DNA of 64,000 bases from Mesobacillus persicus (GTDB lineage: Bacteria; Bacillota; Bacilli; Bacillales; Cytobacillaceae), in assembly GCF_900109925.1 (NCBI RefSeq), contig NZ_FOBW01000013.1:1-64000 (forward strand), written 5' to 3'. The notes beneath the pieces are model-generated. The model was given only the letters and a program-made list of their open reading frames with translations, did not search any database and had not been told where the DNA came from. Position numbers and translations under genes: made by a program. Shown here one piece after another: positions 45,046 to 51,110 of this stretch; the stretch's first letter is position 1, and the number at the start of each line of letters is the position of its first letter.

Positions 45046-45525
45046 GTGCATATCTCAATTGTGACGGTTGGGAAATTAAAAGAAAAGTACTTGAAACTAG
45101 GGATAGAGGAATATGTAAAACGACTAAATAGCTATGCGAAAATTGATTTAATTGAGGTAGCAGACGAAAAAGCACCCGAAGAATTAAGCGAAATAGAAAT
45201 GGAGCAAGTGAAGCAAAAAGAAGGCGAGCGCATATTAGCAAAAATCAACCAGGATACATATGTGATTGCTCTTGCAATTAATGGGAGATTGAAATCATCA
45301 GAAGAACTCGCTGAGACCCTCGATAAATTGGCCACCTACGGGAAGAGCAAGGTGGCCTTTATTATCGGTGGATCGCTTGGGTTAAGTAATGATGTATTAA
45401 AGCGGGCGGATGAGCAGTTGAGTTTTTCAAAGATGACCTTTCCACATCAACTGATGAAGTTGATTCTTGTAGAGCAAGTTTATCGAGCTTTTCGGATTAA
45501 CCGTGGTGAACCGTATCATAAGTAA
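45046..45525 (+). CDS. rlmH: 23S rRNA (pseudouridine-1915-N3) methyltransferase RlmH
   Basis: RlmH (YydA; orfX in Staphylococcus) is a SPOUT-class methyltransferase acting on helix 69 of 23S rRNA. I start at the GTG at 45046, after GGGG; this gives 159 aa, the same as B. subtilis, and the usual [17 protein letters not shown] start. The SAM-binding knot is at [15 protein letters not shown], and the protein ends [10 protein letters not shown]. These last codons form the sequence that is repeated three times downstream (see the att-like sites). Confidence 0.97.
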
Positions 45526-45527
45526 AT
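45508..45527 (+). other. att-like site 1 (native rlmH 3' end)
   Basis: GAACCGTATCATAAGTAAAT encodes Glu-Pro-Tyr-His-Lys-stop of rlmH plus 5 bp with the following TGAGGTTTT. In staphylococci the corresponding sequence is the SCC attachment site. Confidence 0.7.
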
Positions 45528-45578
45528 GAGGTTTTTTAGTAGTTGTTTTATAACCATATCTTTCCGTTTTGTCTTCTG

Positions 45579-45605
45579 AACTTGATATAATGTATATATC
45601 AAGTT
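45579..45605. promoter_or_regulatory. Palindromic operator overlapping the promoter of the AlbA_2 regulator gene
   Basis: AACTTGATATA (45579-45589) and TATATCAAGTT (45595-45605) are perfect 11-bp inverted arms separated by 5 bp. A consensus -10 TATAAT (45586-45591) lies within it, and the ribosome-binding site follows immediately. Binding here would block transcription or translation of the next gene, so autoregulation is likely. Confidence 0.7.
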
Positions 45606-45619
45606 AGGAGGTGTATTTT

Positions 45620-47260
45620 ATGGACATTAAAGAGGTAATTAAACAGGGTGAAACTAAGTATGTAGAGTTTAAAAGTTGGGTGAAAGCAAACAAAAAAGAA
45701 CTCATGAATATCTTAACAAATGAGGCTGTCGGATTTGCTAATTCAGATGGTGGTATTATTTTAGTCGGAGTTGAAGATGATGGGGAAATTACCGGATGTG
45801 ATGACTATGATGAACAGGGTATCATTGAGAGCATTTATGATAAGACGATACCGAAGCTGTTTACTGATATTGATGTAATAAAGATTGCTAATAAAGATAT
45901 CATAAAAATATCCATTCAAAAATCACATGAAATTGTAGCTACTTCAAAAGGCGTTGTATTTAAAAGATTAGGGAAAAATACAAAGCCATTTTATCCATCA
46001 GAATACACCTCAAATAGTATAAAAGGATTTAAAGGAGACTACTCCGCAAAAATTATCGAACCTGCTACCAATGATGATATAGATTTTACTGAAGTAGAGC
46101 GCTTAAAGTTAAAAATACAATCTCGTGATAAAGATTCTACTTTATACCAATCAGACAATATCACTTTCTTAAAGGACTTACGATTGATAGATATTATTGG
46201 TGATGAAATTCAGTTAACAGTGGCAGGTTTATTATTTGTTGGAACTAAAGAGGCAATTACTAGGTATTTACCACAATCTGAGATAATTATTCTTACATAT
46301 AATGAAGGGCAAACTGAATACCATAAGCGTTTAGAGCTCAAAGTTCCATTAGTCCAGGCAGTAGATAGGATTCAACAATTTTTTGAAGATAGAAATGGAA
46401 TACAGAACATTCAAATGGGACTATTCAAATTGGAAATTCAAGATTATCCTATTAATGTTTTCCAAGAAGCTCTTTTAAATGCAATTTCACATCGTGATTA
46501 TGAGAGCACTTCTTCAATATTTGTTAAGTTTTATCCGAATGAAATAATTATTGAAAATCCTGGCTCGTTCCCGTCTGGGGTAGATAGTACAAATATTATT
46601 ACACATCCTTCTTCACCGAGAAATAAGTTAATTGCTGAAACGCTCCAAAAACTGAGATACGTTCAACGTTCCGGACAAGGAGTAGATATCATATTTAAAG
46701 ATATGCTGTCTTTAGGAAAGTCAGCTCCAGAATATAATTTATATTCTGAGGCAGTAAGTTTGACTTTAAGAAGCAGTTTAGAGGACATAGAATTTCTAAA
46801 GTTTATTACTAAAGAAGAAGAAACTAACGGTGAGTTTTCAGTTTCGGAAATCTGTATATTAAAATACATTAAATCTAATAAAACCATTACTCTAGGCAAG
46901 GCTGCCGAGGTGGCTCAAATAACAACTCAATCAGCAGCAAATGTGTTAAACAAACTTTGTAAAAAGAGAAATATTCTACAAAGGGAAGCAAGAAATAAAT
47001 ATATGTTTACCCATCGAGTATACGAAAGTTTTAATGCCAATATTGAATATACAAAAGATAAAGACTTTGATGAAATTCAAGCTAACGTAATGATTTTGGA
47101 CTACTTATCTAAAAACGAATATATAACCCGTAAAGAAGTTGAGAGGCTTTGTGGATTTTCACCAGCTACAAGTAAAAGAATACTAAAGGATTTAAGGGAA
47201 CAGGAAAGAATAATTTTAGAAGGTCAAAATAAATCCAGTAAATATAAATTAAAAAAATGA
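45620..47260 (+). CDS. AlbA_2 / ATPase-domain regulator (COG2865 type)
   Basis: A 546-aa protein with an N-terminal Schlafen-type AlbA_2 DNA-binding domain (about 1-130; YVEFKSWVKAN, GFANSDGGIILVGVEDDG), a GHKL-like ATP-binding domain (about 200-390; ALLNAISHRDY, IIENPGSFPSGV, RSGQGVDIIF), and two winged-helix segments (about 405-470 and 490-546; KRILKDLREQERI). Such proteins are annotated as ATP-binding transcriptional regulators or RecG-like; biochemical roles are poorly known and some sit in defence islands. The ATG at 45620 has GGAGG 8 nt upstream. Cargo of segment 1, with its own palindromic operator. Confidence 0.85.
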   Translation: MDIKEVIKQGETKYVEFKSWVKANKKELMNILTNEAVGFANSDGGIILVGVEDDGEITGCDDYDEQGIIESIYDKTIPKLFTDIDVIKIANKDIIKISIQKSHEIVATSKGVVFKRLGKNTKPFYPSEYTSNSIKGFKGDYSAKIIEPATNDDIDFTEVERLKLKIQSRDKDSTLYQSDNITFLKDLRLIDIIGDEIQLTVAGLLFVGTKEAITRYLPQSEIIILTYNEGQTEYHKRLELKVPLVQAVDRIQQFFEDRNGIQNIQMGLFKLEIQDYPINVFQEALLNAISHRDYESTSSIFVKFYPNEIIIENPGSFPSGVDSTNIITHPSSPRNKLIAETLQKLRYVQRSGQGVDIIFKDMLSLGKSAPEYNLYSEAVSLTLRSSLEDIEFLKFITKEEETNGEFSVSEICILKYIKSNKTITLGKAAEVAQITTQSAANVLNKLCKKRNILQREARNKYMFTHRVYESFNANIEYTKDKDFDEIQANVMILDYLSKNEYITRKEVERLCGFSPATSKRILKDLREQERIILEGQNKSSKYKLKK

Positions 47261-47301
47261 GCCGCAAATGAGCCGCAAATGAGCCGCAAATGAGCCGCAA
47301 A
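47258..47301. repeat. Four tandem 11-bp repeats at the stop codon of the AlbA_2 gene
   Basis: TGAGCCGCAAA is present four times in a row, starting with the stop codon TGA itself, followed by a fifth TGA. The repeat brings a stop codon in each unit. Variable copy number by slippage is expected. Confidence 0.92.
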
Positions 47302-47345
47302 TGACTAAATAAAAGATGGAAAACCTCATTTAGACATGTCACGGT

Positions 47346-47365
47346 GAACCTTACCATAAGTAAGT
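47346..47365 (+). other. att-like site 2
   Basis: GAACCTTACCATAAGTAAGT matches 17 of 20 bases of the rlmH end, and is followed by GAGGTTTTT as at site 1. In the rlmH reading frame it would still encode Gly-Glu-Pro-Tyr-His-Lys-stop: both changes before the stop codon are synonymous. AAAACCTCATTTA, the inverse of the site 1 flank, lies just before it at 47320-47332. Confidence 0.7.
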
Positions 47366-47389
47366 GAGGTTTTTAAATAAGGAAAAGGA

Positions 47390-47430
47390 GGTTTGAGCCT
47401 AACACATATATGTTCGGTTCAAGCCTTTTA
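47390..47430 (+). terminator. Hairpin downstream of att-like site 2
   Basis: GGTTTGAGCC (47390-47399) pairs with GGTTCAAGCC (47416-47425), including two G-T pairs, followed by TTTTATTATTT. The rest of the gap to 47588 is AT-rich with nothing else visible. Confidence 0.6.
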
Positions 47431-47588
47431 TTATTTCAAAAAGAATAAAAGTTTAAATTATATAGTGAATAACTTCAGAATGTAGACATGTAAATTAAAA
47501 AATATAGTTTTTTTAAGTTTTAAATCATCTTGTTTGACTATATAATTTAAAAAAAGGCAATAATTTAAATTAAGGTAGGTGATCTGGT

Positions 47589-48821
47589 ATGGAATATGAG
47601 AAATTATCTAAGGTTTTTTATAAAAAGGGAAAAGAATATTATGAAAATGAAATTGAGAAAAGAAAAAGTAGTTACGGTAGTTATTTAACAAACTTAACTA
47701 TTAGAAGTTTTAGAAAAGGACAAATAATTAATGAATCCTACCAATTATTTTATGTGAATACTCATCAATTGATGTCTCTAAATAACAAAGTGTTAATCAA
47801 TAGTTCAAAGATATCTTCACTTATTAGTAGGCTCCCCAAGTTCGTGGTAGAGCCATATTTCCATAAACTAATTGTGAACGAAGCACAAAGTAATAATGAA
47901 ATAGAAGGTATACGTAGTACTAAAAAGGAATTAAAAGAAGTATTGGGAGATGTAATGAAATCTGAAAAAAAACAAAAACGTTTTAAAGGATTAATGAAGA
48001 CATATTTGTTTATTGATCAAATTAAACCTTTTACGGAAATATCAGATTTCAGAAAGCTATTTGATGATTTAGTCTCAGATGAGATAGATAGGGAAGATGC
48101 GCCTGACGGTGAATTATTTAGAAAAGGTTATGTAGAGATAAATGATGGATCAAATACAACTCATATAGGCGTAAGTTCCGAAGTGAAAATTATTGAATCA
48201 CTAAACGCATTAGTCAACTTTCTCGATGATGAAGAGCATTCAGAATTGTACCGCTATATGGTGGCACATTACTATTATGAATACATACATCCTTTCTATG
48301 ATGGAAACGGTAGAACAGGGCGTTTATTAGTTTGTAGTTATTTATCTAGATATTTAGAGAGATATTCTTCAATTACTTTTTCTTATGCAGTGAATAAGAA
48401 CAAATCAAAGTATTATAAAGCTCTTGAAGAAATACCTACTCCTTTAAATAAAGGAGAAGTGACCTTTTATTTGATGGATATGCTAGAATTGCTTTTGTCA
48501 GGGCAAGAAGGGATTATTGAAGATTTAGAAATAAATTTGTCCAAAATAGAACGAATTAAAGAATCTTTTAAAAGTGAAATCTGGCATGAACGAATGGAAG
48601 AATCCGATTTATTAAGGATAATGACATATTTAAGTGTATTTGTTAATGAAGAAATCAATTTTTCTGTAATTAGGTTGATGGAACTTTCTAATAAGTCAAG
48701 ATATAAAGTAAATCATATAATGAGTAAATTAGAAGATGATGGCTATGTTAATTTGGTAAGCCAAAGACCGAAGGAATATAAAGTATCTGATGAATTTTTA
48801 GAAAACATCTTAATTTCTTAA
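47589..48821 (+). CDS. Fic domain protein (class with N-terminal inhibitory helix)
   Basis: Fic enzymes transfer AMP or other nucleotide parts to target proteins. The 410-aa protein has the complete active site HPFYDGNGRTGR with catalytic His234. The N-terminal region has NNEIEGIRSTKKEL, resembling the inhibition motif (S/T)xxxE(G/N) but with Asn at the first position. A winged-helix segment is at the C-terminus (about 345-410, NKSRYKVNHIMSKLEDDGYV). Such chromosomal Fic proteins act in toxin-antitoxin or regulatory roles. It is the only gene of segment 2; no separate antitoxin gene is visible. Confidence 0.88.
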   Translation: MEYEKLSKVFYKKGKEYYENEIEKRKSSYGSYLTNLTIRSFRKGQIINESYQLFYVNTHQLMSLNNKVLINSSKISSLISRLPKFVVEPYFHKLIVNEAQSNNEIEGIRSTKKELKEVLGDVMKSEKKQKRFKGLMKTYLFIDQIKPFTEISDFRKLFDDLVSDEIDREDAPDGELFRKGYVEINDGSNTTHIGVSSEVKIIESLNALVNFLDDEEHSELYRYMVAHYYYEYIHPFYDGNGRTGRLLVCSYLSRYLERYSSITFSYAVNKNKSKYYKALEEIPTPLNKGEVTFYLMDMLELLLSGQEGIIEDLEINLSKIERIKESFKSEIWHERMEESDLLRIMTYLSVFVNEEINFSVIRLMELSNKSRYKVNHIMSKLEDDGYVNLVSQRPKEYKVSDEFLENILIS

Positions 48822-48998
48822 AATCATTAATAGACAGTTGAGGGTAAAACTTTTTACTTGGCTTGCTTAAATTTAGCAGATTAGATGGAAAAAAAACTAC
48901 GAAAGAATAAATGCAGTTTTTGAATTTTAAGCATTAAGCATTAAACATTAAGCATTAAGCATTAAAACTAGAAAACCCTCATTTAGATTCACAAGGCT
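48822..48998. other. Right end of segment 2: tandem 7-bp repeats and inverted flank
   Basis: TAAGCAT is repeated in tandem at 48928-48962 (five units, the third TAAACAT). Then follows AAAACCCTCATTTA (48972-48985), the same inverted flank as at site 2 with one extra C, leading into att-like site 3. No gene is visible. Confidence 0.75.
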
Positions 48999-49018
48999 GA
49001 ACCGTATCATAAGTAAAT
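48999..49018 (+). other. att-like site 3 (identical to rlmH end)
   Basis: GAACCGTATCATAAGTAAAT is identical over 20 bp to 45508-45527. The following bases (CAGATTTAG) differ from the GAGGTTTT at sites 1 and 2. Confidence 0.75.
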
Positions 49019-49185
49019 CAGATTTAGACCAACGCCTCTCCTTAAGTGTTGGGGAGGTTAGAAAAAAACTATAGGAAGGGTATTCCCCAATAATGAAGTA
49101 AGTGGATTGACAATTGTAATAATTCTATTAAACTAAAGTTAGTTCTATCCACGAATTTTTCTCGAAATATCCTTATATCTTTGCT

Positions 49186-49335
49186 CTACTCCGCAAGTCT
49201 TATTTGCCAATTACGATCCTTCAATTGTGTTTTACTAATCCTCTTTTTTTCGCTATCATCTACCACATAATAATTTTCATAGTTTTTCAAAGATCCGTCT
49301 AAAAATTCTAGGCAATCTGTAATGGAGATATTCAC
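49186..49335 (-). pseudogene. Small open frame, possible gene remnant
   Basis: A 49-aa frame on the minus strand from a GTG at 49335, MNISITDCLEFLDGSLKNYE at its start and ending QLKDRNWQIRLAE. There is no convincing ribosome-binding site and I do not recognise the family. The rest of the 370-bp gap between site 3 and the next gene shows nothing else. It may be the tail of a lost gene of segment 3. Confidence 0.3.
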
Positions 49336-49391
49336 TGGATTTTATTTAATTGTCTATGTTGTGAATGTTCTTTTAGATAGGAGAGGGAAGT

Positions 49392-50054
49392 ATGGGATTT
49401 GAAAAAGAATACCAGGCCTTTTTAAATGCTCACTTACAGGCAAGAACCGGTGAACGGTTGCGGCGCCTACAAGAAGGTCACAAACAGGCTGAAATGTTGT
49501 TTTTAAAACAAGTATGGTGGCCATTATTTCACCAATTCAAGTATCTTCATCCAGAACATGAAGTGGATGATTACAAGGATGGCAAACGGTATTTGGATTT
49601 TGCTTATATTCGTCCCGGCATCCAGATTTGCTTAGAGGTCGACGGGTATGGCCCTCACCTAAAGAACATCAGCAGATGGCAATTTTCCGACAACCTAGAA
49701 CGTCAAAACCAGCTGGTGATTGATAGATGGACCGTGATTCGCTTTTCTTTTGATCAAGTGAAAGAGAATCCTCGTAGATGCCAACAGATTGTTCAGCAAG
49801 TGATTGGTAAGTGGCTGGGTGATGAGCTGGACCAGACATCTCTGTCCTTTCTTGAAAAGGAAGTGCTTCGACTAGTGATTCGAAAAGGAGAAGACATATC
49901 CCCAACGGAAGTTGAGGAGTATTTAAAGTTAAGTGACAAGACAGTAAAAAAAGTACTTTCTCAATTAGTCGAAAAAAAGATGCTAATCCCTACATCTGGA
50001 ACCAAGAGGATCCGCTCCTATCGGTTAGGGGATCAGGTTAAAGATCCGGTCTAA
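49392..50054 (+). CDS. PD-(D/E)XK nuclease-like protein with C-terminal winged helix
   Basis: This 220-aa protein resembles DUF559/Vsr-like endonucleases: Asp69 in RYLDFAYI, then Glu82-Val-Asp84 in CLEVDGYGPH and a following RQNQLVIDRWTVIRFSFDQV, the usual core order. The C-terminal part (about 150-210, SPTEVEEYLKLSDKTVKKVL) looks like a winged helix. GGAGAGGGAAGT precedes the ATG at 49392. It is the main gene of segment 3. The real substrate is unknown. Confidence 0.7.
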   Translation: MGFEKEYQAFLNAHLQARTGERLRRLQEGHKQAEMLFLKQVWWPLFHQFKYLHPEHEVDDYKDGKRYLDFAYIRPGIQICLEVDGYGPHLKNISRWQFSDNLERQNQLVIDRWTVIRFSFDQVKENPRRCQQIVQQVIGKWLGDELDQTSLSFLEKEVLRLVIRKGEDISPTEVEEYLKLSDKTVKKVLSQLVEKKMLIPTSGTKRIRSYRLGDQVKDPV

Positions 50055-50297
50055 TTAATAAGCGGAAGAATTCCGCTTAATTAGTAATTTTTATAAAAAC
50101 TAGCTCAAATAGACGGAGAAATTCCGGTTATTGACTCGAAAAACGTGAAAATGTGGTATTTTGCTTTGCATAACCGGAAAATCTCCCCTTATTTACATCG
50201 AAATGAGCTCCATTCTGTATTTAGACGGAAAATCTCCGCTTATTTTTCTTTTGCTAGGTTCACCAATCAAAAGGAAGAGAGTTTGATGAGTCATGAT
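50055..50297. repeat. Run of short CGGAAAATCTCCG-type palindromic repeats
   Basis: Four related units lie at about 50058-50078 (TAAGCGGAAGAATTCCGCTTA, a perfect-arm hairpin), 50110-50133, 50170-50192 and 50221-50243, spaced about 55-60 bp. Each is a CGGA...TCCG near-palindrome next to TTATT. No gene can be supported between the nuclease gene and rluF. Confidence 0.65.
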
Positions 50298-50317
50298 GAA
50301 CCGTACCACAAAAAAAT
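50298..50317 (+). other. att-like site 4 (degenerate)
   Basis: GAACCGTACCACAAAAAAAT matches 16 of 20 bases of the rlmH end. In the rlmH frame the sequence from 50295 reads Asp-Glu-Pro-Tyr-His-Lys-Lys-stop, so the changes in the Glu-Pro-Tyr-His-Lys codons are synonymous. It marks the likely right border of the array. Confidence 0.5.
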
Positions 50318-50402
50318 AGGTGGGTTCCTAAGTCATTGAGTGCTTCTTTCATGGAAAGCAGCACTATTCGAATTTTCGAGGCAAACTCGATATCCGCCTA
50401 AT

Positions 50403-51110
50403 CTACCACTCTCTAGGTTCATAATTTAATTCCCTAAATAATTGTGTTCGCTCTTTCTTAGATAGATCTCTCCACTGCCCAGGTGGGAGGTTGCCTAAAT
50501 GAATATTCATGATCCGGGTTCGTTGTAATCTGTAGACCTCATAGCCCAAAGCTTCGCACATGCGGCGAATTTGCCGGTTTAACCCTTGTGTAAGTATGAT
50601 TTGAAAGTCAAATTTTGATAGTTGATGGACTTTACAAGGAAGTGTTTTTGTTCCCAATATTTTTACACCCTCTGACATATTCTTTAAAAATTCAGGTGTA
50701 ATTGGCTTGTCCACGGAAACGATATATTCCTTTTCATGCTTGTTTTCAGCACGGAGAATTTCGTTAACAATATCACCATCATTCGTAAGTAGGATTAATC
50801 CCTCTGAATCCTTATCGAGGCGCCCAATATTAAATACCCTTAATGGATGGTTGACCAAGTCAACTATATTTCCCTTTACACCTTTTTCTGTTGTACTAGT
50901 AATGCCGACAGGTTTATTCAAGGCAAGATAGACATTGTTCCTTGCGATCCGAATGGGATCCCCGTTTACAAGAACCTCATCCCCGGGCTCAACCTGGCTG
51001 CCCAGTGTTGCCTTTTTGCCGTTTATCATTACTCTCCCATCGTTAATTAATTTATCTGCACCACGCCTCGATGCTTTTCCAGAATCACTTATAAACTTAT
51101 TAATACGCAT
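50403..51110 (-). CDS. rluF: 23S rRNA pseudouridine synthase, RluF type
   Basis: A 235-aa protein with an N-terminal S4 RNA-binding domain (1-60, [20 protein letters not shown]) and an RsuA/RluB/E/F catalytic domain with the active-site Asp99 in [36 protein letters not shown] is typical of the RluF group, which modifies U2604 (E. coli numbering). It is convergent with the island and transcribed alone. Confidence 0.9.

Follow-up and report, generated by a model that had tools for sequence, protein, structure and literature searches.

How did four copies of the end of one housekeeping gene come to lie in a row, with one main gene enclosed between each successive pair? This question is raised by a part of the genome of Mesobacillus persicus (assembly GCF_900109925.1, contig NZ_FOBW01000013.1). 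The window analyzed here comprises positions 1 to 64,000 of this contig, and the array in question extends from the target gene rlmH, which encodes an rRNA methylase (45046..45525, + strand; 159 amino acids), to the gene beyond it, rluF (50403..51110, - strand; NCBIfam RluF, 331 bits). We consider it quite likely that this interval is a stack of non-autonomous cassettes of the type of the staphylococcal cassette chromosome (SCC), added successively by a recombinase supplied in trans. Sequence comparisons show that units built in this way have been gained, lost and exchanged entire between the rlmH arrays and plasmids of Bacillaceae.

Repeats, arms and the position of strand exchange

The target gene is identified by both Pfam (SPOUT_MTase, 202 bits) and NCBIfam (RlmH, 261 bits) and is the sole match in the 4.64-Mb genome. 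Its last codons constitute the attachment (att) site: the 3' end (45508-45525) recurs on the same strand at positions 47346, 48999 and 50298, and copies 1 to 4, which start with GAACC, show identities of 20/20, 17/20, 20/20 and 16/20 over 20 bases. This confirms the initial annotation, which had reported four such copies bracketing three segments of 1.3-1.8 kb; the segments measure 1838, 1653 and 1299 bp, and a single main gene is present in each. Copy 1 is followed by the left arm TAAATGAGGTTTT (45523-45535; copy and arm 45508..45535, + strand), which agrees with the arm termed class A here at 10/10 positions, and its inverted repeat AAAACCTCATTTA (47320..47332), an exact class A pattern, lies 13 bases before copy 2. 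Together they delimit cassette 1 (45517..47355, + strand; about 1.84 kb), with AlbA_2 cargo. The same arm pattern frames cassette 2 between copies 2 and 3 (47355..49008, + strand; about 1.65 kb; Fic cargo), where copy 2 (47346..47373 with its arm, + strand) is followed by the left arm TAAGTGAGGTTTT (47361-47373) and the right arm is AAAACCCTCATTTA (48972..48985). The terminal inverted-repeat scores are 13/14 for segment 1 and 12/14 for segment 2. Copy 3 is joined to the degenerate left arm, TAAATCAGATTTA (48999..49026, + strand), of segment 3 (49008..50307, + strand; about 1.3 kb). The degenerate copy 4 (50298..50315, + strand) forms the junction with rluF, and a hairpin recognized from sequence and alignments, AGTGCTTCTTTC...GAAAGCAGCACT (50339..50365), marks the spacer preceding that gene. 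No further att copy was found past copy 4 within 14 kb of rlmH. Cassette ends are drawn in the middle of a TAYCAY core, the position of which is taken from the linkage mapping described below.

When the 18-mer GAACCGTATCATAAGTAA was searched against the whole genome, the best three sites were copies 1, 3 and 2 (0, 0 and 2 mismatches), followed by 11 more sites at 3 mismatches, with a reversed control giving 5 sites at up to 3 mismatches; copy 4 lies beyond this limit and retains 14 bases, GAACCGTACCACAA (codons E-P-Y-H-K). The rest of the genome thus does not contain the repeats at equal frequency; equal frequency was the outcome that the initial annotation had named as speaking against its reading. 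The survey was extended to 139 Bacillaceae rlmH loci, made up of the 80 best RlmH matches, six genomes of the genus (including Bacillus sp. FJAT-27251 and Mesobacillus foraminis CV53, present as the duplicates L110/L030 and L108/L077), 60 chosen genomes of the family and the window, that is 147 minus 8 duplicates. The family here is the family group of the genome collection (193 genomes), and the length available downstream of each locus is limited by contig ends (less than 1 kb in L123). A degenerate 15-mer (up to 1 mismatch) has 145 copies downstream of rlmH in these loci, as against a single copy in 0.76 Mb of upstream sequence and 3 copies when the 1.6 Mb downstream are read on the reverse strand; at least one downstream copy is present in 83 of the 139 loci, and L143 has six. 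Chance repeats are ruled out by these counts in the genome and across the rlmH loci, and the repeated use of an SCC-type site, as surmised in the initial annotation, is supported by the copies across the 139 loci and by the shared whole cassettes described below.

The ends of the 145 segments are also paired. The left and right ends within a segment match at a mean of 8.47/14 positions, with no more than 7.70 in 2000 shuffles, and 40 of the segments score at least 11/14 (shuffled mean 19.5, maximum 30). The arm ATGAGGTTTT (at least 8/10) directly follows rlmH in 56 of the 139 loci, compared with 15 of 13,483 background positions. The exact class A right end was recovered at 56 sites in 40 of the 193 family genomes (none for the reversed control), and at the order level in 14 of 397 genomes, 12 of these outside the family. 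The system therefore extends past the family, outside which this exact end is found less often. Immediately internal to the left arm, the att copies of L035, L065, L091, L177 and L190 possess AAAAAAGTAACAGCACC, whole or in its visible part. Carriage of the cassettes by phages was considered and set aside, as viral contigs gave no exact match to the class A right end with its fixed 6-base spacer.

The point at which strands are exchanged was approached through linkage between arm classes and variable positions of the att site, using 101 of the 139 rlmH junctions and the 75 and 77 of the 145 copies assignable to a class, each against 300 shuffles. At the rlmH junctions, positions -1, -4 and -7 show linkage to the class of the left arm that has come in, above all 300 shuffles, and the variable sites from -10 upstream show none, with -13 narrowly missing (0.157, shuffle maximum 0.161). 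In the remaining copies these three positions are again linked to the downstream class, and the upstream (right-arm) class is linked only at -23 and further upstream; as that class is itself defined by about -39 to -29, linkage over this stretch follows from the definition, and -27, -25 and -23 are the sole independent positions. Since the left-arm class is linked only to -1, -4 and -7 and the right-arm class only from -23 upstream, strand exchange is placed between about -13 and -7, within TAYCAY, a placement derived from linkage across the loci of the family and not from the window genome alone. Shared ancestry alone is insufficient to explain this pattern, because the upstream sites would then also be linked, and they were not. 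TAYCAY corresponds to the core TATCATAA, which is given for both SCC and the Enterococcus cassette chromosome in the part of the literature drawn on here (PMC6222049); for SCC, a change of the C in this core is reported there, after earlier work, to abolish the exchange. Exchange at the GA of the dyad centre, our first guess, was dropped after the mapping.

Gain, loss and sharing of whole units

Comparison of the rlmH-rluF interval, which the initial annotation had proposed, revealed both partly filled and empty versions of it. In G090 (locus L134), from base +4 past rlmH onwards, the sequence is 87% identical to segment 3, so that its rlmH junction is homologous to copy 3 of the window, segments 1 and 2 are precisely absent and one site is left. 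In five loci (L151, L155, L145, L075 and L038) rluF directly follows rlmH; the hairpin found after copy 4 is present at the rlmH-rluF junctions of L151, L145, L155 and L075 (it is not clear in L038) and is also seen in L175. The protein of segment 3 is 94% identical between the window and G090, whereas RlmH is 85% identical, and segment 3 itself is therefore likely to have moved. In L134, L109, L172 and L128 its left end is preserved as far as the att site, but its right ends differ between genomes, and it is probably an older, decayed cassette. That the three genes are ordinary vertically inherited neighbours, with repeats arisen by chance or conversion, might be suggested by the segment-3 gene, which in several genera is a neighbour of rlmH or of an att copy. 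This account is nevertheless very improbable: the repeat counts, the pairing of end repeats, the plasmid copies described next and the excess of segment-3 over RlmH identity in G090 all speak against it, and the absence of segments 1 and 2 from that genome already disproves it for these two.

Units are also found whole at different places, in agreement with the precise gain elsewhere that mobility would entail. The cassette at position 1 of L136 recurs at position 2 of L161 (4043 bp each, 95.2% identical), and that at position 1 of L163 recurs at position 3 of L167 (2345 bp each, 94.2% identical), between unrelated flanks in each case. Overall, whole cassettes, complete from one att site to the next, recur at differing positions and in differing genera, and on plasmids, at 87-98% identity. 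Five plasmid records were matched by window copy 2 at E 0.01, of which four were examined. A Heyndrickxia oleronia plasmid possesses a 4.0-kb spore-germination cassette that matches the first rlmH cassette of L148 at 96.6% identity. A BenE/LysR cassette on a plasmid of Peribacillus sp. R9-11 is 97.7% identical over 2.5 kb to an rlmH cassette of L142 and 97.4% identical to a cassette of Peribacillus deserti (L043), and a YitT cassette on a P. asahii plasmid is 87% identical over 1.1 kb to the first rlmH cassette of L143. Stacks may be headed by an 11-codon mimic of the rlmH end, as on plasmids L251 and L254 and in the chromosomal loci L176 and L188, with no rlmH gene in the examined stretches. 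These mimics have 1 or 2 mismatches to a 33-base degenerate pattern, the reversed pattern giving none at up to 6; as L188 and L251 share 8.5 kb at 99%, they amount to three independent cases and not four.

Recombinases and the proposed mode of movement

In agreement with the initial annotation, no serine recombinase was seen in the array: there is none among the Pfam matches of its three main proteins (the short open reading frames of the array were not scanned), and the four PF07508 genes of the genome all lie off the rlmH contig. This is typical of such units, in that 45 of the 46 segments with class A arms at both ends are devoid of a serine recombinase. The sole exception is a 12.9-kb element of G023, which also encodes a P4-type primase/helicase and a RadC-like protein, and whose 573-residue recombinase scores 412 bits with the CcrB model and 361 with the CcrC model. 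The curated cut-offs being 900, it is a relative of staphylococcal CcrB and not CcrB itself. Matches to this enzyme at E 1e-120 or better are present in 10 of the 193 family genomes, six of them 67-100% and four 44-46% identical, and none was found on plasmids at this threshold. Elements that are complete, having class A arms on both sides and a CcrB/CcrC-like enzyme, occur in G023, G089, G059 and G112, the recombinases of the latter three being 71-96% identical to that of G023. In G031 (where the gene is interrupted by an internal stop) and G048, only class A right ends are seen. The autonomous class A elements span 13-20 kb.

The initial annotation had left the choice between a recombinase acting in trans and decay; the former is plausible because elements with the same ends carry a CcrB/CcrC-like enzyme. 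Each of segments 1 and 2 forms a unit with the last rlmH codons and TAAATGAGGTTTT at its left, AAAACCTCATTTA 13 bases before the next copy, and one self-contained gene. We propose that a large serine recombinase of the CcrB/CcrC kind, encoded on larger SCC-like elements with the same ends and supplied in trans, would excise such units as circles by exchange inside the TAYCAY core. The expected circle junction would join the right end (AAAACCTCATTTA...GAACCNTAYC) to the left end (ATAAGTAAATGAGGTTTT). Circles would then insert at rlmH, rewriting its last codons, so that the newest unit comes to lie closest to the gene. The simplest history would start with rlmH-rluF, followed by the arrival of segment 3, then of the Fic unit and last of the AlbA_2 unit.

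The existence of autonomous 13-20 kb elements with the same ends, together with the degenerate segment 3 and its unmatched ends, might also point to the array being the decayed remains of one larger SCC-like island, inserted once, deprived of its recombinase and split at internal repeats. We regard this as unlikely. Nine proteins of the G023 element leave no trace in the array (tblastn, E 0.01), and homologues of any of the nine occur in only 12 of the 145 segments, one of these being the G023 element itself. Segments 1 and 2 have their own matched end pairs, and other genomes and plasmids contain small units in complete form.

Somewhat less improbable, if still doubtful, is that the mover is not the class A enzyme and is instead one of the other serine recombinases of about 530-610 amino acids, which are encoded directly beside rlmH in many loci; those of L029, L045 and L062 match the CcrB model at 380-399 bits. 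The elements carrying them, however, mostly start with arms other than class A (AGGCAAAAA, GCACATGGTT, GGGTAAAATA). Only the G023 element, among the 8 of 145 segments with a serine recombinase, is class A at both ends, and the remaining class A elements examined carry the G023-type enzyme. As to tyrosine recombinases at rlmH, one gene (L029) was recovered in a weak single-seed search of L026-L111.

Some further features of the recombinase genes at rlmH deserve mention. Several loci, among them L029, L066, L069 and L100, have a recombinase gene of about 570-600 codons antisense to rlmH, with its stop codon inside the latter, so that the C-terminus of the enzyme would be predicted to change upon integration or excision. 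In L154, L202, L203, L205 and L206 the large recombinase gene begins within an open reading frame of 183-187 codons that overlaps it; that of L154 has only a resolvase N-terminal domain, and these might be a partner or a remnant of a CcrA-like gene. In L062, L169 and L170 a 4.8-kb serine-recombinase element replaces the C-terminus of rlmH, which then ends in EPYIF.., and a complete second rlmH follows (about +0 to +4775), whereby integration seems to have been paid for by a spare copy of the target gene. L162 has a second rlmH around +2704, and its genome, G086, has four rlmH matches.

A number of observations weigh against successive addition in trans, or restrict its reach. The end repeats of segment 3 score 6/14, which is no match, and no att copy follows the segment in G090. 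Having no matching end repeats, segment 3 is old, decayed or not a cassette. The precise absence in G090 is seen in another genus and not in a strain of the same species, all our comparisons of gain and loss being between species and genera. Homologues of the AlbA_2 protein (G039, G032) and of the Fic protein (G106, G055, G024) are found without an att copy in the 11-15 kb examined, and the AlbA_2 homology ends at the open reading frame; the absence of att copies there speaks against a ready reshuffling of these two genes. The closest Fic homologue (L060, 72%) lies about 5 kb downstream of rlmH past two att copies, with none seen to its right. At least four of the 145 copies are the ends of extra complete rlmH genes (L062, L162, L169, L170). 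As placed by eye, 12 of the 37 placeable class A sites are at least 350 kb from rlmH on the same contig, 19 of the 56 sites being unplaceable. In L175 (G124:C1:1.26 Mb) and L172 (G017:C1:62-64 kb), rluF or YitT, both neighbours of rlmH in the window, lies beside such far-off cassette ends, which suggests chromosomal rearrangement involving att copies or their neighbourhood. rluF stands between att copies in L075 (+0 to +1011), L145 (+0 to +1119) and L143 (+7554 to +10161), and the 1011-bp rluF segment of L075, counted among the 46 above, has class A arms at both ends. Hence rluF may be cargo in some relatives and is not safely ancestral.

The window genome, moreover, has no relative of the class A recombinase at E 1e-120. 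Its four large serine recombinases are 22-27% identical to the class A enzyme, and the three scored on the CcrB model, all but that at C39:23.6 kb, reach at most 95 bits. These were set aside as movers, being distant from that enzyme, and contig C39, which holds two of the four, has no 18-mer att copy at up to 3 mismatches. As there is no close relative of the class A recombinase, present-day mobility in this genome is unproven. Contig C39 of the window genome (G000; 61.7 kb), which encodes two overlapping large serine recombinases of 554 and 534 amino acids (L020, 2284-5509) and genes recognized by eye as resembling those of anaerobic nucleotide reductase, is possibly a plasmid or an island.

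Cargo of the units and relationship to known systems

The gene of cassette 1 (45620..47260, + strand) encodes a 546-residue protein combining a Schlafen AlbA_2 domain, a RecG-C-like HATPase_c_4 domain and a winged helix; its best PADLOC model is pAgo (72 bits). That of cassette 2 (47589..48821, + strand; 410 residues) has a Fic domain (Pfam, 46 bits) and a C-terminal winged helix and matches SoFic in PADLOC (118.8 bits). The initial annotation had correctly named these two. Its PD-(D/E)XK label for the 220-residue protein of segment 3 (49392..50054, + strand) was not confirmed: no nuclease family is found among its Pfam and NCBIfam matches, the comparison with solved structures gave nothing significant (best E 0.18, a repressor), and the predicted model is of low confidence (mean predicted local distance difference test score 58.6). 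This protein has a C-terminal winged helix and an N-terminal half that is at most putatively nuclease-like, and its relatives, 79-94% identical, adjoin rlmH or an att copy in several genera. A 27-bp palindrome, AACTTGATATA-N5-TATATCAAGTT (45579..45605), lies over a TATAAT-like -10 and is a possible operator/promoter of the AlbA_2 gene. Given this palindrome and the winged-helix match near the C-terminus in all three proteins (Pfam), the units may be self-regulated, and the cargo of the window looks like a set of conflict or defence genes carrying their own regulatory domain. The 11-mer AAATGAGCCGC is present in four tandem copies at 47255-47298, directly over the AlbA_2 stop codon, and 7-mers of the GCATTAA type are found in tandem at 48928-48967, just ahead of the right end of the Fic cassette.

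Cargo was surveyed more widely in 106 proteins, which are encoded by the 72 segments (of 145) retained after filtering by size and arms. Among the 25 commonest Pfam families listed, amino-acid permeases, AAA_21, LysR regulators, ABC transporters and GmrSD lead; some cargo matches PADLOC models such as mads, AriA, AbiL and PtuA, and three of the 106 are rluF-type pseudouridine synthases, either resident genes or cargo. The cargo is thus mixed and not defence alone, including conflict genes (Fic, AlbA_2, PtuA-like and GmrSD), transporters with LysR regulators and a spore-germination operon.

SCC is known chiefly as the carrier of methicillin resistance, and the origin of its parts is an old question. 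If Bacillaceae do maintain a pool of small cassettes with SCC-type ends, common to plasmids and chromosomes of several genera and moved in trans, SCC-like islands could represent one outcome of a far broader traffic in cassettes, by which adaptive genes would spread as well. What is specified of the site, the arms and the candidate recombinase suffices for tests in laboratory strains.

The array shares with SCC the insertion in the last codons of rlmH, tandem stacking, and direct and inverted repeats, the latter in segments 1 and 2 and not in segment 3; exchange at the TATCATAA core is indicated indirectly, by the family-wide linkage mapping (core after the part of PMC6222049 used here). It differs in the host family, in the arm ATGAGGTTTT, in the units themselves, which measure about 1-5 kb, lack ccr and contain one or two main genes, and in their occurrence on plasmids as well, two of these at rlmH-end mimics. 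As the defining recombinase gene was searched for and not found, either among the main proteins or as a PF07508 gene on the contig, the array is SCC-like or pseudo-SCC-like and not a full SCC. The elements of G023, G089, G059 and G112, with a large serine recombinase of the Ccr kind within matching ends at rlmH, qualify as SCC-like elements proper. They resemble the SCC-like islands described at rlmH in Bacillus and other Firmicutes, which use the same site and possess a large serine recombinase, primase/helicase and conflict genes, some being tandem composites (PMC10061031, as far as its relevant parts go). The Enterococcus cassette chromosome likewise shares the rlmH site, the core and the dyad arms, and its circularization has been demonstrated by PCR; according to the same parts of that report, it differs in the host family, in the 32 kb of the transferred element and in having ccrAB on board (PMC6222049).

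The initial annotation had regarded the arrangement as a distinct, little-described form. This looks tenable for the small recombinase-less cassettes, which alone appear new, since SCC-like islands of Bacillus that occupy rlmH, composites among them, have been reported before; in the portions consulted, that report treats islands with recombinase and Pol-SSB genes and does not describe recombinase-less single-gene cassettes, arms common to these and autonomous elements, or exchange with plasmids (PMC10061031). Among the top-ranked papers of full-text searches in the open-access literature of PubMed Central, judged by title and opening of the abstract, none was on arrays of small recombinase-less rlmH cassettes in Bacillaceae.

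Integron cassettes are small units with one main gene, which form arrays with the newest next to the anchor and are moved by a recombinase encoded elsewhere. The rlmH arrays, as read here, are reminiscent of them in each of these respects, and the sharing of whole cassettes with related bacteria and some of their plasmids suggests a gene-swapping system somewhat akin to an integron in its working. The resemblance is one of function alone: sites of the serine type take the place of attI/attC and their tyrosine integrase, a housekeeping gene serves as the anchor, and cassette 1 at least seems to have its own promoter. No integron integrase is found among the Pfam matches of the three main proteins, and no dedicated search for attC was made. 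We see roughly even chances that Bacillaceae possess a serine-recombinase counterpart of the integron, in which rlmH anchors small, mostly recombinase-free cassettes that owe their movement to CcrB/CcrC-like enzymes encoded by a few autonomous elements and pass from one genus to another by way of plasmids, with landing sites that mimic the rlmH end on some of these.

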